Shown: piece by piece, positions 1,291 to 19,157 of the stretch
How positions within the stretch are numbered: position 1 is the first letter of the stretch
How the letters are laid out: every line of letters begins with the position of its first letter
IMG/VR virus record: IMGVR_UViG_3300045284_000364
Span: 1 to 26,293 of that record
DNA from: a virus
Reading direction: 5' to 3' (one strand)
Length of the DNA stretch: 26,293 bases
Program-made: the position numbers and the translations under genes
The notes under the pieces: generated by a model
Database searches by the model: none
Told to the model about the DNA's origin: nothing
What the model saw: the letters and a program-made list of their open reading frames with translations, nothing else

Positions 1291-1306
1291 GGGCACGATA
1301 GTTGCA
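1291..1306 (+). promoter_or_regulatory. Sigma-54-type (-24/-12) promoter candidate
   Basis: GGGCACGATAGTTGCA matches the RpoN consensus TGGCACG-N4-TTGCW at all fixed positions but the first, including the GG and GC pairs and their spacing. It sits in a 122-bp non-coding gap (1222-1343), about 40 bp before an ATG with a good ribosome site. No enhancer-binding-protein site was recognised. The rest of the gap holds nothing else I can name. Confidence 0.45.
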
Positions 1307-1343
1307 GTATATCTATCGTAGCCCAACAACCGAGGAGACAGAC

Positions 1344-1550
1344 ATGCGGACGAGAGACGAGATAAATAAGACGATCAGCGCGACGCAGAACGAGATAATG
1401 AAGTTCTTCCCCGGGCACTACAAGCTGCTGGCCCTATACGCCCAGCTGAAGGCCGCGCGGGTAGAGCTGAAGTGCCACGAGCAGATCAACGGCGAGGCCA
1501 GGTGGTCGGGAGTGGTTCCCGCCGGGCGCGCCTGCCACGGACCCAAGTGA
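1344..1550 (+). CDS. Small hypothetical protein
   Basis: 68 residues. The ATG at 1344 is chosen because GAGGAGA (1332-1338) precedes it at the right distance; the upstream in-frame TTG at 1302 lies inside the sigma-54-like element. Residues 1-50 are predicted helical and charged (RTRDEINKTISATQNEIMKF), with two cysteines in the second half. It is the first gene after the control region and is followed directly by another small helical gene, so the two probably share a transcript. Family not recognised. Confidence 0.6.
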   Translation: MRTRDEINKTISATQNEIMKFFPGHYKLLALYAQLKAARVELKCHEQINGEARWSGVVPAGRACHGPK

Positions 1551-1561
1551 GGAGGAGAGAC

Positions 1562-1711
1562 ATGCGAGATACCTGGGAGAAGATGGACGAGCTGGCCGAC
1601 GAGGCCGCGATGCTGAGCCTGTGTGGCGAAGTTGATACAGCGGAGTACCGCAGGATACTGAACGAGTGGAACCAGCTGGCCCGCTCGCTGTGCGAGGTGA
1701 CCCATGCTTAA
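1562..1711 (+). CDS. Small helical hypothetical protein
   Basis: 49 residues, strongly helical and acidic (WEKMDELADEAAML...YRRILNEWNQLARSL). A strong GAGGAGAGA ribosome site lies 11 nt after the previous stop. It overlaps the next gene by 8 nt. No family recognised; the coding call rests on the ribosome site, tight spacing and composition. Confidence 0.55.
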   Translation: MRDTWEKMDELADEAAMLSLCGEVDTAEYRRILNEWNQLARSLCEVTHA

Positions 1712-2201
1712 CGACGAACAATTAGACAAGATGGCCAAGATACTGGAGCTCAAGGACTCGGTCCTGGTCGTCCCGGCCCTCGGGATCGAGACCCACTTCG
1801 AGGGACGCAGGGGGAAATGGGAGAAGATGACTCAGTCACGTATCCGGTGGAAGTCGCTCGGCTACGCCACCCTGGCCAGGATGGCAGTCACCCTGTCGCT
1901 CCTGATCGGGTGCGCGGGTTGCGTCTCCGAGGAGCGCGCCCGCCCGGACGAGATAGCCCGCGCCGAAATTTATAACGCGTCGCTGGCCGCCAGGAACACG
2001 GACGCCGCCTGGCTCGAGGAGTACGCCCGCAGCTTGACCGAGAAGAAGTTGGGAATGACGGTCGAGTCGACCGCGCTTTCCAATGTCCAGTTCGTGTGTG
2101 GCACCTTGCAGTGGGACGTTTACTTGGAAAAAGTCACTATGCACCTGACGTACTTCCGGGAGACCGGGTACGTCGCGACATCCAGGAGGTACGACCGGTG
2201 A
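1704..2201 (+). CDS. Putative lipoprotein / membrane-anchored protein
   Basis: 165 residues from an ATG with GAGGTGA 4 nt upstream. An internal hydrophobic stretch at residues about 59-73 (ARMAVTLSLLIGCAGC) is a convincing lipoprotein signal ending in a lipobox, but it lies 58 residues from this start. An in-frame ATG at 1827 (residue 42; GGGAGA upstream) would give a normal-length lipoprotein of 124 residues with a basic n-region. So either 1827 is the true start, or a short leading gene is fused in frame to a lipoprotein, or this is a type II membrane protein. The mature part is helical then beta, with no known domain. Lipoproteins of this size in phages can act in lysis or superinfection exclusion; the role here is unknown. 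Confidence 0.55.
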   Translation: MLNDEQLDKMAKILELKDSVLVVPALGIETHFEGRRGKWEKMTQSRIRWKSLGYATLARMAVTLSLLIGCAGCVSEERARPDEIARAEIYNASLAARNTDAAWLEEYARSLTEKKLGMTVESTALSNVQFVCGTLQWDVYLEKVTMHLTYFRETGYVATSRRYDR

Positions 2202-2359
2202 TGACTCTCTGCTCCATATTCGCGGCTTGTTTCTGGATAGGGTATTTCGCCGGGCGGTTCTTCGGGAAGCGAGCGGCTGCCCGGGGAACGCCGGAGTACA
2301 GGCTCGGCGCCTTCCTGCAGGGGACGCGCCGGCGCAAGGGAAAATGGAAAGAAGCCTGA
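2201..2359 (+). CDS. Small single-span membrane protein
   Basis: 52 residues; the ATG overlaps the upstream stop (TGATG) and GGAGGT precedes it. Residues 1-20 (MTLCSIFAACFWIGYFAGRF) form one membrane helix, followed by a strongly basic tail (GKRAAARG, TRRRKGKWK) that should stay in the cytoplasm. Family not recognised. It is flanked by two predicted lipoproteins, so this small group may act at the host envelope; that is inference. Confidence 0.55.
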   Translation: MTLCSIFAACFWIGYFAGRFFGKRAAARGTPEYRLGAFLQGTRRRKGKWKEA

Positions 2360-2366
2360 TGTACCG

Positions 2367-2395
2367 TTCGCTTCCACCAGTAAAAGGAGTATAAT
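2367..2395 (+). promoter_or_regulatory. Promoter candidate upstream of a lipoprotein gene
   Basis: TTCGCT (2367-2372), a 17-bp spacer and a perfect TATAAT (2390-2395) fill the 43-bp gap after the preceding gene. AAGGAG (2384-2389) lies inside the spacer and would serve readthrough transcripts. Transcription from this -10 would begin at about 2402-2403, on or next to the ATG at 2403. Confidence 0.4.
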
Positions 2396-2402
2396 ATGCG
2401 AC

Positions 2403-2738
2403 ATGAAATTTCTCTCCGCGGTCTCAGCTTGCTCATTGCTCGCGTCTTGCTGCGAAATAAGAGTGCACCCGCAGGGCGTCGGAGCCGTGCTCGTGAACGA
2501 AGTCGCTCGCAGGCAGCTCTTTCGCTACGCCGAGCCAGGGTCCTCATGGCCGAGGATAGACGTGCCGATGCTCGAGGTAGGTTCCTTGAAGATATCGTCG
2601 GCTTTCCACGTCGAGGAAGAAAAGCTAGACGAGACAGTAGAAAAGCTGCGACAACTCCAGCCTGAAGGCTGGCACCTGGGTTTCAACAGCCGCTTGTCTC
2701 TCCAGGGTTTCTACCTGCAGGCCACAGTGAGGTTCTGA
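2403..2738 (+). CDS. Predicted lipoprotein
   Basis: 111 residues. The N-terminus MKFLSAVSACSLLASC is a classic lipoprotein signal: one Lys, a short hydrophobic core, and lipobox LASC with Cys16 as the probable lipidated residue. The mature part mixes beta segments with an amphipathic helix (EEEKLDETVEKLRQL) and ends in a beta-rich segment. It would be anchored in the outer or inner membrane of a Gram-negative host. Domain not recognised; o-spanin or superinfection-exclusion roles are possible but unproven. The overlapping frame from ATG 2396 is rejected because its product is an Arg/Ala-rich shadow. Confidence 0.65.
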   Translation: MKFLSAVSACSLLASCCEIRVHPQGVGAVLVNEVARRQLFRYAEPGSSWPRIDVPMLEVGSLKISSAFHVEEEKLDETVEKLRQLQPEGWHLGFNSRLSLQGFYLQATVRF

Positions 2739-2741
2739 GCC

Positions 2742-3158
2742 ATGACTTTGCCCGAGAAGTTAAGTGATTGCCTGGAGCTCGCGCTGCGCGACCTGGAGGC
2801 ATGCGAGCAGGACCCAGCGTACGAGGTTGACATGAAGTTCTGGCACAAGCCGCAGCCTTTCCGTCGTCTGCATGGCCGGCGCCGTCATGGCGAAGACAAT
2901 CGGCCTCGAGTACTATAACCGCACCGAGGGCACCCTGGCGACCATGTTCGGCAGGGCCGTCGCGGGCAAGCTGTGCGCGATCAACCGGGCCCGCGAGGGA
3001 AACCTGAGAGAGGCCCTGCAGGACTTCCACGGGGAAGGATATTCACATCCAGACTACCCGGCAGGTGGATTTATGTGCCGCCCTACTGTGGCTACCCTGA
3101 GAAGTTCAAGAAAGTCATGAGAGACATAGCCCGCGAGCTGCGGGAGAAAGGAATTTGA
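2742..3158 (+). pseudogene. Phage-conserved hypothetical gene with two compensating frameshifts
   Basis: Three pieces line up as one protein. From ATG 2742, MTLPEKLSDCLELALRDLEA...DMKFWHKPQP is read in one frame, which stops at 2918. Near 2850-2866 the homology continues in the +1 frame as SVVCMAGAVMAKTIGLEYYN and on to LREALQDFHGEGYSHPDYPAG. Near 3060-3072 it returns to the first frame as RWIYVPPYCGYPEKFKKVMR, stopping at 3158. The order (N-terminal helix, W-H, VCxAGAVMA, then a final helix ending in EKGI) is what I know of a phage hypothetical family of unknown function. Either the gene is genuinely broken or the assembly has a one-base insertion near 2855 and a one-base deletion near 3065. 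Programmed shifting in both places is unlikely. Confidence 0.6.
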
Positions 3159-3159
3159 G

Positions 3160-3720
3160 ATGCTGGTAGAGACGTACGAGGCCGGCGAGGGAGTCGGCCA
3201 AGCGGAGGTGGACGAGGAGTCTCGCAAGCTCATGGAGCAGCTGGGACTGGAAGGGCAGCTGGGGCTGGCTACCGGTTTCCCGGCCGCCGGCACCAACCCG
3301 TATTCGGAAATGACGCTGGAGCAGAAGGTGACGTTCCGCGCGTTGTTCCCTGAGACTACTGAGATAGCCAGGTATGCCCGCGGGCCCATCCCGCTGCGCG
3401 TGCTGCAGGTGGCGGCCCACGCTGCTGGGCTGTTCGAGAAGCTGGAAGTCTGGCACTCACGGCACGACGCGGACCCGCTGCTCGTGGGATTGGTCAAGGG
3501 TCCAGAGTCCTACTCTGACCCTCGACCGTACCTGCTCGCGCGCTGGGGTGACCTGCTCGATCCGTTCGGGGAGCTTGTGAAGAAGGCCCGCGCGGTCATC
3601 CGCGAGAGGCTCAAGGCCTACTGGGAAGAGCAGGCCAGCGAAGCCGCGGGACGGCTGCAATGCTTGGACGCGCTCGTCACCAAGCACTTCAACGGCGAGT
3701 TCGTGGGGATACACCGATGA
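3160..3720 (+). CDS. Phage-conserved hypothetical protein
   Basis: 186 residues; ATG with GAAAGGA upstream, two bases after the previous stop. The segments MLVETYEAGEG, LMEQLGLEGQ and IPLRVLQVAAHA...FEKLEVWH, followed by DPLLVGLV, are a pattern I associate with a phage hypothetical family of unknown function. The C-terminal half is helical and charged. No catalytic motif or signal peptide was seen. Its stop overlaps the next start (ATGA), making it part of the 2742-4449 run of small genes. Confidence 0.65.
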   Translation: MLVETYEAGEGVGQAEVDEESRKLMEQLGLEGQLGLATGFPAAGTNPYSEMTLEQKVTFRALFPETTEIARYARGPIPLRVLQVAAHAAGLFEKLEVWHSRHDADPLLVGLVKGPESYSDPRPYLLARWGDLLDPFGELVKKARAVIRERLKAYWEEQASEAAGRLQCLDALVTKHFNGEFVGIHR

Positions 3721-4142
3721 AGCTGACGCCAGAGGAAGAAGACCTCATCAGCAGGAAAATCTGCTACTTCGACAAGACGGAGTGGCGCCTGCGACTATAT
3801 CACGGGCCGCGCATAACGAAGGCCATACGGGACCGGTTCCAGGAGCTCGAGGAGCTGGCGGTGCAAACGCTCATGGCGGAGTTCCACGCGGACGAGGAAC
3901 GCGTGCGACGCGAGCTGGTGTACCGTCTGGGCCCGCCGGAGCCAATTTGCGGCGGCAAGATAACGCAGGAGATGGTCGACGACATGATACAGGCCCGAGA
4001 CTTCGGGGGCATGTCGCAAAAGAAAATAGCCGCGGCTTACGGCGTTAGCGAGTGGACAGTGCACAAGCGGCTGAAGGATGTCGGCGCCACGAGGACCAAC
4101 GCCCCGGGGGCAGGGAGGCCAAAGCGTGGGGGCTCTGTATGA
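3717..4142 (+). CDS. Helix-turn-helix DNA-binding protein
   Basis: 141 residues, ATGA overlap with the upstream gene. Residues about 81-122 are a resolvase-type helix-turn-helix: a QEMVDDMIQARDFGG helix, then MSQKKIAAAYGVSEWTVHKRL, ending in a basic GRPKRGG tail. The N-terminal 75 residues are helical and charged and could mediate oligomerisation. It lies just before the gap with repeated TGTGGAAACC sites, so it is a natural candidate to bind there, though nothing in the sequence proves it. Transcriptional regulation is the likeliest role. Confidence 0.7.
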   Translation: MKLTPEEEDLISRKICYFDKTEWRLRLYHGPRITKAIRDRFQELEELAVQTLMAEFHADEERVRRELVYRLGPPEPICGGKITQEMVDDMIQARDFGGMSQKKIAAAYGVSEWTVHKRLKDVGATRTNAPGAGRPKRGGSV

Positions 4143-4449
4143 CTGTAAGCTGCTCTATGACTGCATGAAAGAGGCGGTCCAGATAGAGCCAAATTCCGTT
4201 CCAGACTTCACGGACTTCGCGCTCTGCTTGGGCATGGCAGTGCTTGGTCGGGCGTCCACCGTCGAGGAAGACGCTGAAATTTCCTGGCTCCTGGGGGAGC
4301 AAAACAGGTGCCACGAGGCTGCTCTCAGGCTCTCTGGCCTGGATTTCTCGGACAAAGAAATAGTTATCTCGTCGCTCAGGCAGAGAGCTCTGGACGTCCG
4401 AGTGAAGATGGCTTCAGCGCTGTGGAGGCTCTGCGAGCCGAGAGGGTGA
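4126..4449 (+). CDS. Small helical hypothetical protein
   Basis: 107 residues from GTG 4126, chosen because AGGGAGG (4112-4118) lies 7 nt upstream; the ATG at 4078 would overlap the previous gene by 65 nt. Mostly alpha-helical (EEDAEISWLLGEQNRCHEAA; EIVISSLRQRALDVRVKMAS), with four cysteines. No domain recognised. It is the last gene before the long intergenic gap, and no terminator hairpin follows it. Confidence 0.55.
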   Translation: MGALYDCKLLYDCMKEAVQIEPNSVPDFTDFALCLGMAVLGRASTVEEDAEISWLLGEQNRCHEAALRLSGLDFSDKEIVISSLRQRALDVRVKMASALWRLCEPRG

Positions 4450-4462
4450 GTCTGTTCCCAGG

Positions 4463-4483
4463 TGTGGAAACCGTGTGGAAACC
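4463..4483 (+). repeat. Tandem TGTGGAAACC direct repeats
   Basis: Two exact copies of TGTGGAAACC, preceded by G and followed by G, start 11 bp apart (4463 and 4474). That spacing puts both on the same face of the helix, as expected for cooperative protein binding. Confidence 0.8.
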
Positions 4484-4685
4484 GATAAATGAATGTGTAA
4501 GTATTTGCTAGAGCAAGTGTTTAATTTTGAATTTGTGTTTTCTGGTTTCCAGATCTATACCTTATCCTAAACTACCTACAATTTAATGGTAGGGTTATTA
4601 AGGAGATATGTGGGGGGAGGGCCTCAATTAGAAACCTTTTCGACCTTATGACGCACCAAAACGTTAGCCAGCAAGCTCCAAACAT

Positions 4686-4705
4686 GGTTTCCACATGTGG
4701 AAACC
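4686..4705. repeat. 20-bp perfect palindrome GGTTTCCACATGTGGAAACC
   Basis: A perfect 20-bp inverted repeat built from two head-to-head copies of the same site found in tandem at 4463-4483. It is followed by a weaker GTAGAAACC half-site at 4708-4716. Typical of a dimeric DNA-binding protein site. Confidence 0.85.
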
Positions 4706-4828
4706 GAGTAGAAACCACTGCAAATGCCTGCCCGTTCTCCGCGTCCAGCCTATGGGCCTGACGAATCCGCCACGGAACGGGCTCGGGTGTCCCAGGAGCC
4801 AGCCTGGGAGTCCTCGTGCAGGTCGTGG

Positions 4829-4834
4829 TACAAT
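4829..4834 (+). promoter_or_regulatory. -10 hexamer TACAAT, possible leaderless start of the small terminase mRNA
   Basis: TACAAT ends 6 bases before ATG 4841, so transcription would start at or next to the A of the ATG. No Shine-Dalgarno sequence lies in the 30 bases before that ATG. No clear -35 is seen. Confidence 0.4.
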
Positions 4835-4840
4835 GGCGCC

Positions 4841-5305
4841 ATGGACGAAAACCAGCGGATACAGTTCTTCGCGGTGCTCGCAGTGTCGGGCAGGCCGCTC
4901 GAGGCCTGCTTCGCGGCGGGCGTCCCGTTCCGCGACGTCAAGAAACTGCAGAAGTCAGACCCGGAGTTCGCTTACCGCTACGAGGAGTCCATGCTGCGGT
5001 TCTGCGAGACGCTGCAGGCCGAGGCAGTCCGTCGCGGGCGAGACGGCGTCGACGAGCCCGTGTTCGGCTCCCTGGGCGGCAACATGGGCTCAGGGAGAAT
5101 CGGCGAGAAGAGAGTCTACTCCGACCAGCTCCTCATGATGGAGCTGAAGCGGCGAGACCCGTCGTACCGGGAGAGAATGACGGTCGACGCCAACCTGACC
5201 GGTGGAGTGCTGGTCGTGGGACCCGTGGCCAAGTCGACGGAGCAATGGAAAAAGGAGAACGAGAATGCTGTTCCTGAACCAAGACCTGAAGTCGACGCCG
5301 GCTGA
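4841..5305 (+). CDS. terS: Terminase small subunit
   Basis: 154 residues. The N-terminal 50 residues form a helical DNA-binding-type region (FFAVLAVSGRPLEACFAAG; FRDVKKLQKSDPEFA). The second half carries the phage small-terminase signature: an AEAVRRGRDGVDEPVF segment, then KRVYSDQLLMMELKRRDPSY followed by RERM. It recognises the packaging site and recruits the large subunit at the portal. ATG 4841 is preferred to the upstream ATG 4724 because homology begins here and the upstream part is low-complexity. There is no ribosome site, so a leaderless start is proposed. The large-subunit gene is 5.3 kb downstream, unusually far. Confidence 0.8.
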   Translation: MDENQRIQFFAVLAVSGRPLEACFAAGVPFRDVKKLQKSDPEFAYRYEESMLRFCETLQAEAVRRGRDGVDEPVFGSLGGNMGSGRIGEKRVYSDQLLMMELKRRDPSYRERMTVDANLTGGVLVVGPVAKSTEQWKKENENAVPEPRPEVDAG

Positions 5306-5969
5306 GCCGCCCTTCGTCATCAACGCTCCTGACCCCGCTGGGAGCTACCTGAAGACCTGGAAAACGGCCGGGCGAGATTGCCTCAACGTAACGCTGCGGC
5401 GCAACCAGCCCCTGGACGAGAACGGGAAGGTCAGGGCCGAATTGCGGGTGCACAGGGAAGGCACCCCTGCGCGGCTCTTCCAGATGGACCCCATGGGCTC
5501 GCGCAGGAGCTCGGCCATCGGACTGTACGTGCCGGAAGACTGGCAGAGAGACGGGCAGAAAGTAATCCTCTTCCAGTGGCACCACTACGGGGAAGGGGTT
5601 TCCGGGGGAAACCCGCCACTCGCGTTCTTCATCTGGAACGACAACCTGTATTGCAGGCTCTGGCACGGGGACAAGAGCGACGCGGCGAGCTTCGTTGACC
5701 TGTACAAGGCACATTGCCCGAAAGGCCAGTGGCTGCACTTCCGCGTGGGCATCAAGTGGGACGCTGTGAACGGGGAAGTGGAAGCTTTGCTCTATGGCAA
5801 GCCCATGTTCCCGAAGTACTCGGGCCCGATCGGGTACAAGGACTCGCCTTTCATTTACAGCTCCATCGGGATGTACTGGCCGGGAGCCAAGTCGAGCTCG
5901 GTGCAGTCTCACCAGGCCTCCTATGGCTGGTGGAAAATCGGGGAAACTCTGGCGGACCTCGAGCCATGA
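5265..5969 (+). CDS. Polysaccharide lyase-like protein (heparin lyase I fold)
   Basis: 234 residues; ATG 5265 with AAAGGAG upstream, overlapping the small terminase by 41 nt. The central part follows the jelly-roll polysaccharide lyase pattern: RSSAIGLYVPEDW near 81-93, the ILFQWHH segment at 101-107, PPLAFFIW near 117-124, QWLHFRVGIKWD near 155-166, and IYSSIGMYWPG near 197-207. In the heparin-lyase family the QWH region contributes to the substrate cleft. No signal peptide, so it would act as a virion depolymerase or after lysis against host capsule or exopolysaccharide; a purely carbohydrate-binding role is possible. Family call is moderately firm, substrate unknown. Confidence 0.65.
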   Translation: MLFLNQDLKSTPAEPPFVINAPDPAGSYLKTWKTAGRDCLNVTLRRNQPLDENGKVRAELRVHREGTPARLFQMDPMGSRRSSAIGLYVPEDWQRDGQKVILFQWHHYGEGVSGGNPPLAFFIWNDNLYCRLWHGDKSDAASFVDLYKAHCPKGQWLHFRVGIKWDAVNGEVEALLYGKPMFPKYSGPIGYKDSPFIYSSIGMYWPGAKSSSVQSHQASYGWWKIGETLADLEP

Positions 5970-6295
5970 ACGCGCGCGACGCTGCAGCGCGCCTGAGGGT
6001 CATGGGTGTGACCAGCGCCAGCTCGAAGAAAGTGCTGCTGGAGCTGGCCGACTGGCTGGAGAAGGGAGCGGAGGTCTCCTTGGCGGAGGCCTCTCTCGCC
6101 GAGCTGTTCAAGGCCACGGCTTCCCGCGGCGCCCTCGCCCTGACCGTGGTGGCCAACATGGTGAACGGGAAAGAGGTGGTGTCGGTGCAGGCTGCCGGGA
6201 TGACGAGCGGCTGCGTGGGCCTGGCCGACGTGGCGAAGCGCCACCTCTGCAGGAAAATGAGCACGCAGAAAAAAGCCACCTGGGACGAAAAATGA
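5966..6295 (+). CDS. Hypothetical protein
   Basis: 109 residues, ATGA overlap with the lyase gene. Helical N-terminal half (ARDAAARLRVMGV; KKVLLELADWLEKG; SLAEASLAELFKA), then a small beta/alpha region and a basic C-terminus (KRHLCRKMSTQKK). No recognised domain. Co-translation with the lyase suggests a linked late function. It is followed by a promoter-like gap. Confidence 0.55.
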   Translation: MNARDAAARLRVMGVTSASSKKVLLELADWLEKGAEVSLAEASLAELFKATASRGALALTVVANMVNGKEVVSVQAAGMTSGCVGLADVAKRHLCRKMSTQKKATWDEK

Positions 6296-6306
6296 CGGTT
6301 CGCGGG

Positions 6307-6327
6307 CGAGCGCGCTCGTGGTAGGAT
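6307..6327 (+). promoter_or_regulatory. CGCG palindrome plus TAGGAT -10-like element
   Basis: A perfect 12-bp palindrome CGAGCGCGCTCG (6307-6318) sits 3 bp before TAGGAT (6322-6327); TTCGCG at 6299-6304 is 17 bp upstream of the hexamer. It lies in the 65-bp gap before the glucosyltransferase gene. The palindrome followed by a T-rich run could instead be a weak terminator of the preceding genes. The same layout recurs at 15599 and 19040. Confidence 0.4.
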
Positions 6328-6360
6328 TTGGTTTTCTCGTTTCTCGAAAGGACCTCTCCC

Positions 6361-7497
6361 GTGAAGATAGCTCTGCTGCGCTTCGGCAGGGGCTTGGTCA
6401 ACGCCAAGATACCCAACGTGACGGCCGCCGAGGAGGTGGGACTCGCCCTGGACCTCAAGGCCCTCGGCCACGAGCCAGTCATATACAGCAACTGGATGAG
6501 GGGCCACGAGCGCGACGAGTGGGGAGGCATCCCGTTTGCCAGCGTGATAGACTGGATCGAGGAAGTCAACTCCTGCGACGCCATGCTGATGTTCAACTGC
6601 ACGGTGAACTTCTTCGGGGGAGCGGAGCACGAGGGCTCCTGCTACGCGCAGCGAGCCTTCTGCCAGTTCCCCGGCCCCGTGGCCATGGTGGTGACCGACC
6701 CGCTCTGCCTGAACCAGGCCTGGAAGTATGGACCGCGACTCCCCAACCACCCCTGGCTCTCTCGTTACCCCGAGACGGAGTACTTCGCCCTTCGCGGGAA
6801 GCGGACCAGCGTCATCACGAACTTCAGGGACCTGGACAAGGTGCGGGACACGTGTGCCCGGAAGGTGAGCTGGAGCTGCGTCGAGCCGTTTGACTTCTTG
6901 GACCAGGGATACCTGACGCACTTCAGGTTTACGAATCTCGACGCGGTCAGGACCGTGGACCTCGGCTACGGCGGTTCAGGTCGGACTGGCAAGCGCGAGG
7001 ACCAGCTGAGGGAGTTCTACTTCGGCCATGGATACCTCGACGTCAGGATGTGTGGCACCATCTCGCAGAAGAATTTCTCGGACATGCCTTCTCCCGGTAC
7101 TGGCGTCCCGGCCTTCATGGGCAAGACCGCAGACTACTTCGAGTACCTCGACTTCATGCGGTCTTGCTTCGCGACGGTCTTGACGTGCGACGAGTGGTAC
7201 GAGGACAACTGCGTCCCCGCCAGGCTCGTGGAAGCGGCGGTGTGCGGGACCATCCCGCTGATAGACAGGGAGTACGACTCGAAGGGGCTCTTCGTGCGCA
7301 ACGACCCCCTGCTCGAGGAGCATTGCTACGTGTCCTGCAGGAAGGACGTGTCGGACAAGATTCGCCAGCTCAGGGCCAACCCGCAGCTCGCCCAGGAGAT
7401 CAGGGACAGGCACTCCAGGATATGGGTCGGGTACCCCCGTTTTTTAGACCGTCAGGCCAAGCTCGCGGGCATACTGAGGAGGCACTTCGGATGCTGA
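6361..7497 (+). CDS. T4 beta-glucosyltransferase-like DNA glycosyltransferase (GT63)
   Basis: 378 residues from GTG 6361 (GAAAGGA upstream; an in-frame TTG at 6328 is the alternative). It is collinear with T4 beta-glucosyltransferase (351 aa), which moves glucose from UDP-glucose to 5-hydroxymethylcytosine in DNA. Matches from memory of T4 BGT: N-terminal MKIALLRFG...N..K; a Glu after the first strand (E24/25, T4 E22); VNFFGG at 82-87 (T4 INFFGG); VTD at 111-113 (T4 catalytic D100); YGGSGRTGKRE at 203-213 with R208 and R212 (T4 R191, R195); YEDN at 280-283 (T4 YNDN); RLVE at 288-291 (T4 R269 and E272); then LIDREYDSK (T4 LIDEEFDTK). All known donor-binding and catalytic positions are kept, so an active enzyme is likely. 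Acceptor base and sugar are not determined. No hydroxymethylase is in the window. Confidence 0.85.
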   Translation: MKIALLRFGRGLVNAKIPNVTAAEEVGLALDLKALGHEPVIYSNWMRGHERDEWGGIPFASVIDWIEEVNSCDAMLMFNCTVNFFGGAEHEGSCYAQRAFCQFPGPVAMVVTDPLCLNQAWKYGPRLPNHPWLSRYPETEYFALRGKRTSVITNFRDLDKVRDTCARKVSWSCVEPFDFLDQGYLTHFRFTNLDAVRTVDLGYGGSGRTGKREDQLREFYFGHGYLDVRMCGTISQKNFSDMPSPGTGVPAFMGKTADYFEYLDFMRSCFATVLTCDEWYEDNCVPARLVEAAVCGTIPLIDREYDSKGLFVRNDPLLEEHCYVSCRKDVSDKIRQLRANPQLAQEIRDRHSRIWVGYPRFLDRQAKLAGILRRHFGC

Positions 7498-7955
7498 AGA
7501 CTTTCTTGACGATCTTGCGCCACAAGAGATTTGTGTACAGGGCAGGACGCAGGCTCGGCGTCTCCAGGTGGAGGCTGCTGAAGCATGACCTGTCGAAGTT
7601 CTCTCCCAGGGAGTTCCTCGCCTATGCCCAGCAATTCGGCCCCGGGAAAGAGAGGAACCCGTCGCGCTTCGCCGCGGCTTGGCTACACCACGTGCAGCAC
7701 AACGACCACCACTGGGAGCACTGGGTGCTGCCCCAGCCCGGGAAGGAGAACGTGTCCCTGGACATGCCGGACCAGTGCATCCGCGAGATGGTCGCGGACT
7801 GGCTCGGGGCGTCGATGGCCTACGAGGGCTACTGGCCCGTCAAGGGCAAGTGGAGGTGGTACACAGAGAACTTCAAGAATATCCAGCTGTCGTCGCTGAC
7901 GCGCCTGAGGGCACAGCTGTATGTCAACCAGGCGCTGACCCCGGAGGCGAGATGA
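7491..7955 (+). CDS. DUF5662 family protein (His-rich, HD-like)
   Basis: 154 residues, ATG overlapping the glucosyltransferase stop by 7 nt. The family signature is clear: KHDLSKFSPREF at 31-42, AWLHHVQHNDHHWEHW at 63-78, and EMVADWLGA at 99-107. The many conserved His and Asp residues look like a metal site of the HD-phosphohydrolase type, but the biochemical function of DUF5662 is unknown. Cytoplasmic; no signal or membrane segment. Tight coupling to the glucosyltransferase makes a nucleotide or DNA-modification role worth considering, though the pairing could be incidental. Confidence 0.75.
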   Translation: MLKTFLTILRHKRFVYRAGRRLGVSRWRLLKHDLSKFSPREFLAYAQQFGPGKERNPSRFAAAWLHHVQHNDHHWEHWVLPQPGKENVSLDMPDQCIREMVADWLGASMAYEGYWPVKGKWRWYTENFKNIQLSSLTRLRAQLYVNQALTPEAR

Positions 7956-8149
7956 AGAAGAAATCGCGCGGTGGCAACGCCTGCTGGATAGCCACGGAGA
8001 CGCGGAGAGGCTGGAGAGTGAAGCTGTCAACCGACTATCGCGACTTCCCGCTCTCCGGGCTGCTGCTGGATAGCTGCAAGGACGTGAAGCAGCTCCGCGG
8101 CTTGTCGGTGGTGTTCGTGTACCTGGACGGGAGCGAGTACAGGCCATGA
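7952..8149 (+). CDS. Small basic hypothetical protein
   Basis: 65 residues, ATGA overlaps at both ends; GGAGGCGAG just upstream. N-terminus KKKSRGG is basic; the rest looks like a small beta-rich fold (WIATETRRGWRVKLSTDYRD; VVFVYLDGSEY). Family not recognised. The overlapping arrangement supports coding. Confidence 0.55.
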   Translation: MKKKSRGGNACWIATETRRGWRVKLSTDYRDFPLSGLLLDSCKDVKQLRGLSVVFVYLDGSEYRP

Positions 8150-8481
8150 GCCTCGATCCGATCAACGGATTTTTCGAGTTCGCTGGCTCAGCCCTACTGT
8201 GGCTGAACGTCGCCGCTCTCGTGAGAGACAAGAAGATAGCTGGAATCAAGTGGTATTCCGTGGCATTTTGGACTCTCTGGGGCTTGTTTAACTGCGCGTA
8301 TTACCCCTCTCTCAGCCAGTGGTGGAGCTTCGCGGGCGGCGTCTCCGTGGTCAGCGTGAACTGCGTGTGGCTGGCGCTCCTGTGGAAGTACTCGAGGTCC
8401 AGCCGCTCCTTGTCGTACGTCGAAGAGACAGTCCACGGCGTGGAACCCGGGCGCAGGAGATTCTTCAGGGACGACCGATAA
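8146..8481 (+). CDS. Multi-span phage membrane protein
   Basis: 111 residues, ATGA overlap with the upstream gene. Three hydrophobic segments near residues 8-25 (EFAGSALLWLNVAALV), 35-52 (KWYSVAFWTLWGLFNCAYY) and 60-82 (WWSFAGGVSVVSVNCVWLAL), with a basic C-terminal tail. The pattern MSLDPINGFFE...GIKW...F.LWG.FN..YYPSLSQW resembles small phage membrane proteins of unknown function. Holin activity is possible but no other lysis gene is adjacent. Confidence 0.65.
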   Translation: MSLDPINGFFEFAGSALLWLNVAALVRDKKIAGIKWYSVAFWTLWGLFNCAYYPSLSQWWSFAGGVSVVSVNCVWLALLWKYSRSSRSLSYVEETVHGVEPGRRRFFRDDR

Positions 8482-8493
8482 GATAGGATCATC

Positions 8494-9663
8494 ATGATAG
8501 CTTCACACGTACATGCGGCAGTTCTCGTGCTCATCCCCGCGGCGGGTCGCTGGCTCCCGTCCATGGTGACGCCGTCCGGCGAGCAGCGCAACATCACGTC
8601 CACCACGACTGGAGGGATACAAGAAGCGATTGACTACGCGTGCGAGAAGGGCTTCGATCTGTACATCTCAGGGGGAGACGAGGACACTGGGGGAGCCACG
8701 GTATATGACTGCGGGTCAACCCCGATCGTGTTCCCGCCGATGCAGGGCAAGCGCGTCGCCACCGGGGCGATCACGCTGAACTTCAGCGGGGCCATTGGCA
8801 TGGCGCCGGGGATCAGGTTCGACAGCTGCATGATGGTCGACGTCGAGTTCTCCGCGGCCCAAATTGTCTACGCGGGGGAAGGCGCGGCGATTGAGTTCAA
8901 GCCCGTCAACCAGCTGCCGCTTGACCCCTTGGCCGCCATCATAGACTCCAGGTTCTTCTTCACCACCGTGGTGAGCCCGACCGGGACGTCGCTCGTCAAG
9001 TTCAGCACCTACTCCGGGGACATAACTTCGTGCGAGTTCAACTTCGTCGAGCTCAACGGCGCGGAGACAGGCGTGCTCGTGCACCAGGGGAGCCGACCGT
9101 TCCAGTCCAACTCGCTGCGGTGCCCGCACGTCCACGGGCAGTCCGAGACGTGCGTCTCGTTGGGCGACTCGGTCGACTTTGCCGACAACGTGCGGGACAA
9201 CTCGCTGGAGGTCTTCGCGTTCCCCCCGGACGGCGTGACTGCCTTCGACGTGTATGGCAGCGAGAACAAGGTATGTGGCCACTCTCGGGCCCCAGATGGC
9301 GCCACGCCGGCCCACGGGGTGCGTTTCAGGGCACCCGCGGCCAGCAACGAGTGCGACTTCCAGCACCTCGACGGCGGGATATTGGACGAGTCTACGGCCG
9401 CCACGAACCGCGTCGAGGAGCTCGGGCCCAAATCCCACTCGACGGTGACGGTCGGAGATTCTCCCTTCGTGTACCAGAACCTCGACGCGAAGATCGAGAG
9501 AGTCACGGTGCAGGGTGGGTCCGTCACCGGCAACTTGCTCATGAGCCTGGACGGCGCGACCTACTATGACCTCGGACTCCCGGCCGGGATGTTCACGCTG
9601 TACCCAGGAGAATATTTGAAGATAGTGCACGCGGGAGCCCCGACGATGAGGAAGTTCCAATGA
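8494..9663 (+). CDS. Beta-helix receptor-binding / tailspike-like protein
   Basis: 389 residues. GIQEAIDYACEKGFDLYISG (residues about 45-65) is the opening helix and strand typical of phage right-handed beta-helix spikes. Residues 70-300 are short repetitive beta turns rich in Gly, Asp and Ser. The last 70 residues (SPFVYQNLDAKIERVTVQGG, then TYYDLGLPAGMFTLYPGEYL and APTM) match a C-terminal beta-sandwich domain common on phage receptor-binding proteins. ATG 8494 has AGGA upstream; an ATG at 8563 would remove a hydrophobic 23-residue N-terminus. It probably binds or degrades a surface glycan. Encoded in the cargo between the terminases, with the polysaccharide lyase. Confidence 0.7.
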   Translation: MIASHVHAAVLVLIPAAGRWLPSMVTPSGEQRNITSTTTGGIQEAIDYACEKGFDLYISGGDEDTGGATVYDCGSTPIVFPPMQGKRVATGAITLNFSGAIGMAPGIRFDSCMMVDVEFSAAQIVYAGEGAAIEFKPVNQLPLDPLAAIIDSRFFFTTVVSPTGTSLVKFSTYSGDITSCEFNFVELNGAETGVLVHQGSRPFQSNSLRCPHVHGQSETCVSLGDSVDFADNVRDNSLEVFAFPPDGVTAFDVYGSENKVCGHSRAPDGATPAHGVRFRAPAASNECDFQHLDGGILDESTAATNRVEELGPKSHSTVTVGDSPFVYQNLDAKIERVTVQGGSVTGNLLMSLDGATYYDLGLPAGMFTLYPGEYLKIVHAGAPTMRKFQ

Positions 9664-9854
9664 CCATCTGCTTCCACTGCGACTTCAAGGAGGCCAAGGT
9701 CCGCTACCGCGGCGCGAAGGTATGCCGGGACTGCCGTCGCGACCTCGAGTCGGGCAACTCGGCCGGGATCCACGCCCGCCGGCTGCGCGGGAAAGAAGTC
9801 CGAGACTTTTTCAGCGACCAGCCAGACCACAGACGAGGTAAGATATACACATGA
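9660..9854 (+). CDS. Small zinc-ribbon protein
   Basis: 64 residues, ATGA overlaps at both ends. Two CxxC knuckles, CFHC (4-7) and CRDC (22-25), indicate a compact zinc ribbon followed by a basic helix (HARRLRGKEVRDFFSD). Such proteins in phages are usually nucleic-acid-binding or adaptor proteins of unknown role. First of a run of five overlapping mini-genes. Confidence 0.65.
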   Translation: MTICFHCDFKEAKVRYRGAKVCRDCRRDLESGNSAGIHARRLRGKEVRDFFSDQPDHRRGKIYT

Positions 9855-10129
9855 GAGGCGCGAGAGTCAAAGAGCTGCGTGAGCAGGTGGAGCGGTTCCA
9901 CTTGCGGTTGACCAAGAACCAGTGGCGCGAACTGAAGCGGGCATGGGCTCGAGGCGAGCGAGATGTCGTCGCGGCGCTCAGAAAGATTAAACTGTCCAAG
10001 GTGCGGGACGCTGCTCCTGCTGTGGAGATTCGGCCACCCAACGGACGAGCGCGAGGCGTTCTGTCATCTCTGCGAGTACTGTCTAGTGTGGGACTCCTCG
10101 AGAGACTTTTTTCGAGAGGTAAAGGATAA
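9851..10129 (+). CDS. Small basic helical protein
   Basis: 92 residues, ATGA overlap upstream with GAGGTAAG as ribosome site. The first 57 residues are strongly helical and basic (ARVKELREQVERFHLRLTKN; RELKRAWARGERDVVAALRK). The last 35 share their DNA with the zinc-ribbon frame starting at 9963 and look less natural. The gene may therefore be shorter in function than in length, or a frameshift near 9990-10010 may have separated an original two-domain protein. Confidence 0.5.
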   Translation: MRGARVKELREQVERFHLRLTKNQWRELKRAWARGERDVVAALRKIKLSKVRDAAPAVEIRPPNGRARGVLSSLRVLSSVGLLERLFSRGKG

Positions 10130-10169
10130 TGCCGCGGCCAACGAGGCGACCAGGCCAGACGACCGTTGA
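9963..10169 (+). CDS. Small zinc-ribbon protein nested in overlapping frame
   Basis: 68 residues. CPRCG (11-15) and CHLCEYC (33-39) form a clear zinc-ribbon pair separated by LLLLWRFGHPTDEREAF, followed by LVWDSSRDFFREVK. The match to a zinc ribbon is far better than expected of a shadow frame, yet 167 of its 207 bases also encode the end of the gene at 9851. The ribosome site is weak (GAGGCGAG). Real as a domain; whether it is a separate gene or the displaced C-terminus of the 9851 gene is open. Confidence 0.55.
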   Translation: MSSRRSERLNCPRCGTLLLLWRFGHPTDEREAFCHLCEYCLVWDSSRDFFREVKDNAAANEATRPDDR

Positions 10170-10332
10170 GCTAAATCCTATCAAGGTGACCCAAGATGAG
10201 TGGGAAAGGATTTTCGGCAAGCGGGAAAGGAAAATCTGGGCCCCGGAAGGCGACCCCATTCGGGAGCGCGAGCGGGAACCTCGGGAAGACGCGGCGGCCC
10301 TCAAGGAGTACCAGCGCGGAATACTTCGTTGA
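10129..10332 (+). CDS. Small charged hypothetical protein
   Basis: 67 residues, TAATG junction with the upstream gene and GAGAGGTAAAGGA as ribosome site. Contains VTQDEWERIFGKRERK, a motif type seen in many small phage proteins of unknown function, followed by an Arg/Glu-rich helix. Overlaps the 9963 frame by 41 nt and the 10196 frame by 137 nt. Confidence 0.55.
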   Translation: MPRPTRRPGQTTVELNPIKVTQDEWERIFGKRERKIWAPEGDPIREREREPREDAAALKEYQRGILR

Positions 10333-10408
10333 GCCCGAGGACGAGCTCCTCGACGACGGCATACCGAAGTACTGCCCGGAGTGTGGGACGAAGCTGAGGG
10401 AAGACTGA
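10196..10408 (+). CDS. Small protein with C-terminal CPECG knuckle
   Basis: 70 residues from an ATG with AAGGTGA upstream. The first 40 residues are Gly/Ser/Lys-rich low complexity read across the 10129 gene; the last 30 (EYFVEPEDELLDDGIPKYCP, then ECGTKLRED) are a natural zinc-knuckle tail. The C-terminal part is surely coding; the N-terminal part is less certain, and a frameshift from the 10129 frame near 10320 would also give a sensible fusion. The stop overlaps the next ATG (TGATG). Confidence 0.5.
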   Translation: MSGKGFSASGKGKSGPRKATPFGSASGNLGKTRRPSRSTSAEYFVEPEDELLDDGIPKYCPECGTKLRED

Positions 10409-10677
10409 TGGAAGGCTGGCCAACCAACAACTTCACTATCTTGGCCAGGGACCAGCACAGGGACGTCGAGATGAAGTCGGTGGTCAAGGCGTTCACCTTC
10501 GAGAGGGCCAGGGAGAGCTTCGAGAGAGCCTATCCCCCGTCGAGGTACCCGGTGCGCGAGGTGCGGTTCACCATAGACTTCGAGCTCGACCATGTCTTCC
10601 CGGACGGCGACACGCTGCGAGAGCTGCTGGCCATGGCCGAGGAAGGCGAGATAGTTTGCACGACCGACTTGGACTAG
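10408..10677 (+). CDS. Small hypothetical protein
   Basis: 89 residues, TGATG junction. An alpha/beta mix: VVKAFTFERARESFERAYPP helix, VREVRFTIDFELDHVF strands, and an acidic C-terminal helix. No family recognised. Overlaps the large terminase start by 22 nt, so the two are translationally linked. Confidence 0.6.
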   Translation: MEGWPTNNFTILARDQHRDVEMKSVVKAFTFERARESFERAYPPSRYPVREVRFTIDFELDHVFPDGDTLRELLAMAEEGEIVCTTDLD

Positions 10678-12179
10678 AGTGGCACGAAGACGCGGGGGAG
10701 CTGAAGGCTTTCCGCGACGGTCGCGAGATAGCCTGGGCTCCCCAGACCGGAGCCCAGTACGCTTTCCTGAGCTGCCCGGTGTTCGAGGCCCTGCTCGAGG
10801 GCAACCGCGGCGGCGGCAAGTCGGACGCGTTGGTCATGGACTTCGCCCAGCACTGTGGAATAGGCTTCGGCCCCGACTGGCGAGGCATGCTCTTCCGCCA
10901 GACGTACAAGCAGCTCGAGGACATAGTCGCCAAGACCAAGAAGTGGTTCCCGAAGGTCTTCGCGGGGGTGACCTTCAACTCGACGGCCATGCACTGGGAC
11001 TGGCCCACGGGCGAGCGGCTCTACCTGTCCTACATGGAGCGTGAGCAGGACTACTGGGGCTACCACGGGCACGCGTACCCCTGGGTGGGATGGGAAGAGC
11101 TCACCACCTGGCCCACCGACAAGTGCTACAAGGTCATGATGTCATGCTGCCGATCGACGAAGGCGGGCGTCTACCTCGAGAGGGAGAACCCAGATACCGG
11201 GAAGACCGAGCTGGCGTGGGAACCCATGCCCAGGAAATACAGGTCCACGACCAACCCGTACGGCGTGGGACACAACTGGGTCAAGCTGCGCTTCGGGTTG
11301 CCGGTCCCGCGCCACAGGCTCAGTGGACAGGTGATAAACGACAAGGCTGGGGACCGCGTGGCCATACATTGCGACCTGGAGAGCAACAAGGTGCTGCTGC
11401 ACGCCGAGCCGGGCTACCTCGACAAGGTGCTGATGTCAGCGATGAACCCGTCGCAGGCCAAGGCGTGGGCCGAGGGCTCCTGGGACATCGTCGCGGGAGG
11501 CATGTTCGACGACCTGTGGCAGCCGTCGACGCACGTCGTGCCGGACCTGTCGCCGAAGTCCATACCGCACGAGTGGAGGATCAACAAGTCCTACGATCAC
11601 GGGCAGTCGCACCCTTTCAGCGTCGGCTGGTGGGCTGAGTCAAATGGAGAGCCCATAAAGGTAAGCGGCAGGACGCTCGGCGGTGTCCCCGGTGACCTGT
11701 TCAGGTTCGCCGAGTGGTACGGGTGGAACGGGCAACCCAACGAGGGCATCCGCATGACGGCGCGCGACATAGCGCAGGGGATAGTCGAGCGCGAGACCAA
11801 GATGGGCATACTCGGCCGCTGCAAGCAGGGTCCGGCAGACTCATCTATCTTCGATGACTTCGAGCCTGGCAGCTCCGTGGCTGGCGAGATGAGGGCGAAG
11901 GGAGTCCTGTGGCAGCCCGCGCAGAAGGGACCAGGCTCGAGGATCCAGGGCTGGCAAGCGATACGCGCTATGCTGAAGAACGCCGCGCAGCAGCCCAGGG
12001 AGGAAGCCGGCCTGTTCGTCTGCGAGGGATGTGAGCAGTTTATAAGGACGGTGCCGGTCCTGCCGCGCCTCGAGAAGAACCTCGACGACGTGGACTCAGA
12101 CGCCGAGGACCACGTCGGGGACGAGGTACGCTACCGCGTGCGGGAGAGGATACACGCCGCGAAGTCGAGGAGTTTCTAG
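10656..12179 (+). CDS. terL: Terminase large subunit (ATPase and nuclease)
   Basis: 507 residues. ATPase domain: Walker A GNRGGGKS at 49-56, then the FRQTYKQLEDIV segment, and Walker B with catalytic Glu at 142-148 (PWVGWEE). Nuclease domain, RNase H-like: acidic residues at D314 (SYDHG), D395 (GPADSS) and D489 (GDEVRYRV), the usual three-Asp spacing. It pumps DNA into the prohead and cuts the concatemer. The start is TTG 10656, with GAGGAAGG upstream inside the preceding gene; no ATG or GTG fits before the conserved EWHEDAGELKAF region. Isoleucine is ATA in 13 of 18 codons, quite unlike the capsid gene. Confidence 0.92.
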   Translation: MHDRLGLEWHEDAGELKAFRDGREIAWAPQTGAQYAFLSCPVFEALLEGNRGGGKSDALVMDFAQHCGIGFGPDWRGMLFRQTYKQLEDIVAKTKKWFPKVFAGVTFNSTAMHWDWPTGERLYLSYMEREQDYWGYHGHAYPWVGWEELTTWPTDKCYKVMMSCCRSTKAGVYLERENPDTGKTELAWEPMPRKYRSTTNPYGVGHNWVKLRFGLPVPRHRLSGQVINDKAGDRVAIHCDLESNKVLLHAEPGYLDKVLMSAMNPSQAKAWAEGSWDIVAGGMFDDLWQPSTHVVPDLSPKSIPHEWRINKSYDHGQSHPFSVGWWAESNGEPIKVSGRTLGGVPGDLFRFAEWYGWNGQPNEGIRMTARDIAQGIVERETKMGILGRCKQGPADSSIFDDFEPGSSVAGEMRAKGVLWQPAQKGPGSRIQGWQAIRAMLKNAAQQPREEAGLFVCEGCEQFIRTVPVLPRLEKNLDDVDSDAEDHVGDEVRYRVRERIHAAKSRSF

Positions 12180-16525: not shown

Positions 16526-16556
16526 GGGACCTCCACGTGGAGGTCCCTATTTTTTT
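16526..16556 (+). terminator. Rho-independent terminator
   Basis: A perfect 22-nt palindrome (16526-16547; 9-bp stem GGGACCTCC/GGAGGTCCC around an ACGT tetraloop) is followed by TATTTTTTT (16548-16556). It lies 9 bases after the stop at 16516 and is the best terminator in the window. It should separate the 15600-promoter transcript from the genes at 16574 onward. Confidence 0.9.
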
Positions 16557-17142: not shown

Positions 17143-17303
17143 CGGGCCACGACGTCATATCACAGTCCCAAGCCCGCGTGGCGGAGTACAGGAAGAAGAC
17201 CGCCGCGCTGAGGGCTTACACCAAGGACCTGAGAGCTGCCCGCAGGTCCTTCGAGCGAGGCGTGGCCAACATAAAGAGGGACAGCATAGGGAGATTCGCG
17301 TGA
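17139..17303 (+). CDS. Small basic protein ending in RDSIGRFA
   Basis: 54 residues, ATGA overlap with the upstream gene. Helical and strongly basic (ARVAEYRKKTAALRAYTKDL; RAARRSFERG), ending NIKRDSIGRFA. The RDSxGRFA tail is a recurring C-terminal motif on small phage proteins; it may be a targeting tail for the prohead, but that is inference. Confidence 0.55.
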   Translation: MTGHDVISQSQARVAEYRKKTAALRAYTKDLRAARRSFERGVANIKRDSIGRFA

Positions 17304-17304
17304 C

Positions 17305-17469
17305 ATGGCGAAGCCGAAGTTAGGTTCAGGAGCGCGGTTCAAGCACCTCGAGAACGAGATCGGGAAGCATCCCGGGGTGCATGACCCGGGCGCGGTGGCC
17401 GCCGCGATCGGCCGCGCGAAGTACGACAAGAAGCGCTTCCAGAAGCTGGCAGCGAAAGGGAAGAAATGA
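17305..17469 (+). CDS. Small basic phage-conserved protein
   Basis: 54 residues, one base after the previous stop. GSGARFKHLENEI, then GVHDPGAVAAAIGRAKYDKK and RFQKLAAKGKK: the pattern GxGxRF...GVxDPxA.AA.IGR.KYG.K.F..LAA.GK is a recognised small phage family of unknown function. Basic and possibly nucleic-acid-associated. ATGA overlap with the next gene. Confidence 0.65.
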   Translation: MAKPKLGSGARFKHLENEIGKHPGVHDPGAVAAAIGRAKYDKKRFQKLAAKGKK

Positions 17470-19035: not shown

Positions 19036-19157
19036 TCACCCGCGCGGCATTACAATAGTTCTCATAGTAGCGACTCGCGCGCGGGTGACCCGCGTGGAAA
19101 CCTGGGAGGTGACCTCCGGGGATGGCGAGGTAAATAACCACCAACCAGGAGACACCA
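19036..19157 (+). promoter_or_regulatory. Capsid-gene promoter candidate and structured leader
   Basis: 138-bp gap before the capsid gene (19020-19157). TACAAT at 19051-19056 follows CCGCGCGG (19040-19047) by 3 bp, repeating the palindrome-plus-hexamer layout seen elsewhere. TCACCCGCGCG (19036-19046) pairs with CGCGCGGGTGA (19078-19088), bracketing the hexamer. Downstream, GGAGGT-G-ACCTCC (19105-19117) forms a short hairpin, and GGAGA precedes the ATG. The transcript would carry a leader of about 95 nt, suited to mRNA stabilisation or translational control of the most abundant protein. Confidence 0.5.

Follow-up and report, generated by a model that had tools for sequence, protein, structure and literature searches.

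Control regions upstream of the terminase genes in described systems

The closest described counterparts of the locus analyzed here lie in Pseudomonas phage YuA, a Yuavirus, and in the Vojvodinavirus FP1, a Bordetella phage; both, like Pseudomonas phage Ab18, are classed as Mesyanzhinovviridae. In YuA and FP1, the regions upstream of the small terminase gene (terS) and of the helicase gene are AT-rich, as is the gap under study, and short repeats are arranged before terS in direct and inverted arms; the YuA gap also carries an annotated, active sigma70-type promoter. They differ from our locus in repeat sequence (ACTTAGGTT / AAGTAAGTT, versus TGTGGAAACC here) and in that the fragment analyzed here shows no second copy; for YuA, moreover, there is no alignable sequence between the two gaps. 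IMG/VR contig IMGVR_UViG_3300001687_000035 (L029), which has the top TerL identity (62%) among the loci fetched, likewise has tandem and inverted repeats confined to a single stretch (GTTCCYACCT; nine copies within 282 bases and 0 elsewhere in 43.9 kb), and its GTGGGAAC resembles our GTGGAAAC; its copy number and consensus differ, however, and the 20-base palindrome described below is absent from it. Repeated sites also adjoin an AT-rich region in iteron-type origins, such as lambda ori and the two origins of SPP1 (oriL and oriR), from which our locus differs in being known from sequence alone and in having yielded no initiator. In Brevundimonas phage vB_BsubS-Delta (PMC9437464), which is distantly related to YuA, putative sites for the host protein CtrA abound in a gap, and the gene blocks are divergent, whereas the blocks at our locus are co-directional and no CtrA pattern is present. 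The open-access papers searched contained no description of the repeats reported here.

Source phage and composition of the gap

The window (the whole stretch of DNA analyzed, an entire virus contig record of 26,293 bases) is a fragment of a phage that, judging from the similarity of its TerL, portal and head genes, is Mesyanzhinovviridae-like. More specifically, its terL product is ~55% identical to the TerL proteins of FP1 and Ab18, its portal protein is 47% identical to that of Bordetella phage CN2, and its TerS shares 34.5%, 36% and 38% identity with the TerS proteins of Ab18, L029 and locus L002, respectively. The genome is incomplete: the Mesyanzhinovviridae records examined measure 56-64 kb each, as compared with 26.3 kb for the window. 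The first-pass annotation had placed the gap before the small terminase, and the gene starting at 4841 is indeed a TerS homologue. It had also suggested a link between the gap and the helix-turn-helix (HTH) gene at 3717, yet nothing connects that gene to the repeats; no relatives of its product were found, and the family loci contain no counterpart of the small genes at 1302-4449, among them this one, apart from a weak match of the gene at 2872-3120 in locus L004.

The earlier description of the gap as sharply AT-rich holds for its core and fails for its right end (Table 1). Positions 4491-4590 have 31% GC and form the lowest 100-base window of the record, which has 61% GC overall, and the AT-rich part of the gap remains the record's lowest-GC window at 200 and 300 bases, whereas the last 100 bases before terS (4741-4840; ~68% GC) are GC-rich like the rest of the record. 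Whether the gap is the largest in the window, as had been stated, is uncertain, as a longer stretch free of mechanically called ORFs lies at 17143-17380 (no plus-strand ORF of 60 aa).

Table 1. Features of the gap and of the flanking terminase genes (window coordinates)
Feature	Position	Strand	Basis
Non-coding control region, from the last gene of the upstream block to terS	4450..4840		Positional match to FP1, Ab18, YuA and SN1 gaps
Repeat 1, TGTGGAAACC, exact, left arm	4463..4472	+	
Repeat 2, TGTGGAAACC, exact, left arm; 11-base period relative to repeat 1	4474..4483	+	
AT-rich core, 30% GC	4484..4600 (about)		
Repeat 3, TCTGGAAACC, 1 mismatch	4544..4553	-	
Degenerate repeat, ATTAGAAACC, 3 mismatches	4627..4636	+	
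Perfect 20-base palindrome, GGTTTCCACATGTGGAAACC, right arm	4686..4705		Two exact repeats head to head
TGTGGAAACC, exact, left half of palindrome	4686..4695	-	
TGTGGAAACC, exact, right half of palindrome	4696..4705	+	
Repeat AGTAGAAACC, 2 mismatches; 11-base period from 4696	4707..4716	+	
terS, small terminase homologue, 154 aa	4841..5305	+	Similarity to Ab18, L029 and L002 TerS
terL, large terminase	10656..12179	+	Similarity to FP1 and Ab18 TerL

The repeats are non-random and confined to the gap

The four exact 10-base sites, the tandem pair, the head-to-head palindrome and the weaker copies noticed in the first-pass annotation were all recovered. All seven copies (four exact, three weaker) have GAAACC in common, and because the three weaker copies (4544, 4627 and 4707) keep it, the site seems to consist of an invariant core, GAAACC, and a variable half, TGTG. 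A search of the whole 26.3-kb record found no exact TGTGGAAACC outside 4463-4705, so the 10-mer is not scattered through it. When 4450-4840 was dinucleotide-shuffled 5,000 times, only 1 shuffle had any 10-mer present four times, and GTGGAAACC, at ≤1 mismatch, has six copies in the 600 bases before terS, as compared with a maximum of 5 across 60 shuffles and 57 other windows. The repeats are thus real and non-random. A single site one mismatch from the repeat (CGTGGAAACC, 19093-19102) lies in a different gap, directly before the major capsid gene.

Neither the palindrome nor the tandem pair had an exact match in the viral contigs, and the palindrome had none in the genome_contigs collection (84,980 species genomes). 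The gapped repeat pair gave 7 matches in viral contigs; we rejected these as relatives, as none has a significant match to the TerL, TerS, portal, MCP or HTH protein of the window, and several look like repeats within coding sequence. Rfam gave no match in 4300-5000, and we also discarded the palindrome as an RNA hairpin (folding z-score only -1.3).

These properties bear on whether the sites belong to host proteins. The sites flank AT-rich DNA and GTTTCCACA fits the relaxed DnaA consensus TTWTNCACA at 8 of 9 positions, as would be expected of a cluster of host DnaA boxes; we nevertheless regard this as extremely improbable, given that exact TTWTNCACA is absent from the window, that GAAACC is invariant over the seven copies whereas the TGTG part needed by a DnaA box varies, and that the repeats found at the same place in relatives are unrelated, which is not expected for DnaA. 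Operators of another host transcription factor that the phage has co-opted, after the example of the CtrA-rich gap of vB_BsubS-Delta, are a highly improbable explanation as well: the lack of an exact match to the palindrome among the species genomes argues against a host factor, the CtrA pattern TTAA-N7-TTAA has one match at ≤1 mismatch, which falls outside the gap, and no parS-like match (TGTTTCACGTGAAACA-like site) was found.

Relatives carry different repeats at the same position

Gaps upstream of terS measure 655 bases in FP1, 926 in Ab18, 659 in YuA and 706 in SN1, and FP1, Ab18 and four further loci (L013, L014, L017 and L019) show an AT-rich dip 350-500 bases before terS, as does the window. 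In the window, the DNA directly before terS is both non-coding and AT-rich, and it holds a confined cluster of short direct and inverted repeats. The repeat sequences vary: FP1, YuA and SN1 share one type, Ab18 and Epa5 carry ACTTGAGTT and ACTAGAGT types, and L013 and L014 carry GCTTAGAT. By a uniform measure, the repeat excess was greater than in all 60 shuffles for the window, L029, Ab18, Epa5, L014, L013, L006 and L002, marginal or weak for YuA and FP1, and not significant for L017, L019, PaMx11, SN1, L028, L009 and L099. We therefore describe a repeat-bearing gap as common among the relatives compared, without claiming universality.

The window gap aligned to none of the four relatives' gaps tried, L029 included, and the case for homology is therefore one of position and architecture. 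No large gap precedes terS in the more distant phages 9g and Kakheti25; the feature is therefore traced only within Mesyanzhinovviridae-like phages. In L004, similarity revealed no terS, and no repeat-bearing gap was seen directly before terL. Taken with the described systems, the gap is a repeat-bearing phage control region of a type already known; what makes it interesting is a repeat sequence specific to its lineage.

Paired regions within one genome

Six genomes were found to have two related regions. In YuA, FP1 and Ab18, a second region with the same repeats precedes the helicase gene block, and in G002, G003 and G005 the second region lies elsewhere in the genome. The best within-genome alignments reached 62.8% identity over 218 bases in YuA, 82.9% over 140 in FP1, 81.6% over 369 in Ab18 (in which the two copies have opposite orientations), 69.1% over 97 in G002, 66.0% over 191 in G003 and 85.4% over 41 in G005. 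In contrast, there was no alignment between the regions of YuA and Ab18, or between those of FP1 and G002. Regions that match within a genome and diverge between genera would be expected if one reader per phage served both. By analogy, the phage of the window would have a second copy of its region, outside the 26.3-kb fragment.

These pairs also bear on packaging, which the first-pass annotation had listed, next to an origin and an operator array, as a possible function of the gap. A packaging initiation (pac) site recognized by the small terminase would suit the position directly upstream of terS and a family reported to be circularly permuted and to package by the headful mechanism (PMC11946847). 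No physical ends are visible in the window contig. One pac site per genome is usual, and the two related copies in each of six relatives argue against such a site here; we consider it very unlikely and, of the three functions, the least supported. Along with the DnaA, CtrA and ParB readings, it is less likely than either an operator or an origin, and in all likelihood the gap is a regulatory or replication site.

A possible operator array within a promoter region, or an origin

The YuA record holds five annotated promoters with measured activity, of which only two are of the sigma70 type (1000 MU, with -35/-10 elements, at 489-568 and 33014-33160), the remaining three active ones being of the -24/-12 type. 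In the paper on YuA, the active promoters reportedly came from a promoter-trap assay. The two sigma70-type promoters fall one in each paired region, and their annotated -35 boxes (509-514 and 33048-33053) both lie within the repeat CTTAGGTT. In the window gap, one sigma70 promoter scan gave no good match; the best sigma70-like match is weak (7.5 bits; TTTCCA-16-TAAACT, tenth on the plus strand), and the overlap of its -35 element with repeat 3 parallels YuA without being significant. As separate observations, a repeated CTTTACTTCTTCGG...CACTATA element, annotated as a putative promoter, occurs in YuA at 7722, 10500, 22639, 29058 and 31098, and TTTACT-17-TATACT matches recur in FP1.

An operator or promoter function is the best supported of the three options, because an active promoter of the sigma70 type is annotated in the YuA gap and because, in relatives, the second related region heads another gene block; the confinement of the sites to the gap, their conserved position and the paired copies are further support. 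We give an even chance to the view that the gap is an operator array, recognized by a putative phage protein, within a promoter region that precedes the terminase block. The terminase/virion gene block of this Mesyanzhinovviridae-like phage would then be controlled from the gap at its head, in which an AT-rich core is flanked by, and contains, phage-specific sites of ~10 bases with an invariant GAAACC, direct in the left arm and as a palindrome plus a direct site in the right. A phage DNA-binding protein may bind these sites cooperatively, as suggested by the spacing of one helical turn and by the head-to-head site, which could accommodate a dimer. We infer, the direction of regulation included, that the bound protein would switch a promoter used there by the host RNA polymerase, and that a related second region of the genome would be switched in concert. 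The relative inversion of the Ab18 copies is unexpected for a simple one-way promoter.

That same inversion suits a replication origin, at which a phage initiator would bind the iteron-like repeats and melt the AT-rich core, with two origins per genome in relatives. The 11-base spacing next to an AT-rich core, the orientation independence of the duplicated regions, and the fact that in YuA, FP1 and Ab18 the 200 bases with the lowest GC content fall in the terS-upstream gap all fit this explanation. It is also consistent with the small protein encoded directly before primase in these three phages, which matches HTH domains in one of its halves or in both and differs from the 3717 HTH protein. 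This protein is a candidate reader of the repeats, and an initiator that binds the origin might just as well be encoded there. On the other side, the activity annotated for both YuA regions is promoter activity, both regions head transcription blocks in YuA, FP1 and Ab18, the GC-skew turning points of FP1 (16.5 and 41.7 kb) lie away from both regions, and the window contains no DnaA or IHF consensus site. GC skew, proposed earlier as a check for an origin, showed no switch at the gap within the window and was uninformative in relatives. Because the pre-primase position of the HTH protein and the orientation independence in Ab18 fit an origin, we keep it as a real rival, possible although unlikely. 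It is rather doubtful that the paired, orientation-independent elements are at once paired replication origins and the promoters of two gene blocks, and just as doubtful that, under this dual role, an iteron-like code has been rewritten in each lineage of a siphophage family along with its reader.

Control of the virion genes probably centers on this gap in a phage group that includes many Pseudomonas aeruginosa phages, and copies that match within a genome while the repeats differ between genera offer a natural series for studying how protein and site change together. The genome part equivalent to the primase neighborhood falls outside the window; among the eight metagenomic relatives searched, only one has a gp25-like HTH protein, which counts against the operator reading.

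Other features of the window

In FP1, YuA and Ab18, terS and terL are adjacent, whereas ~5.3 kb separates them in the window (5305-10656), with genes for polysaccharide-lyase-like, T4 beta-glucosyltransferase-like and DUF5662 proteins in between. The two genes are likewise apart in L029 (~3.5 kb), with two small genes in common with the window. The T4 beta-glucosyltransferase-like protein (6328-7497; PF09198, E 4.6e-08; phrog_7922, E 5.5e-34) is possibly a DNA modification enzyme. Over the whole window, CTAG is strongly depleted (17 observed versus ~91 expected from base composition), and a perfect 22-base palindrome, GGGACCTCCACGTGGAGGTCCC, occupies 16526-16547.
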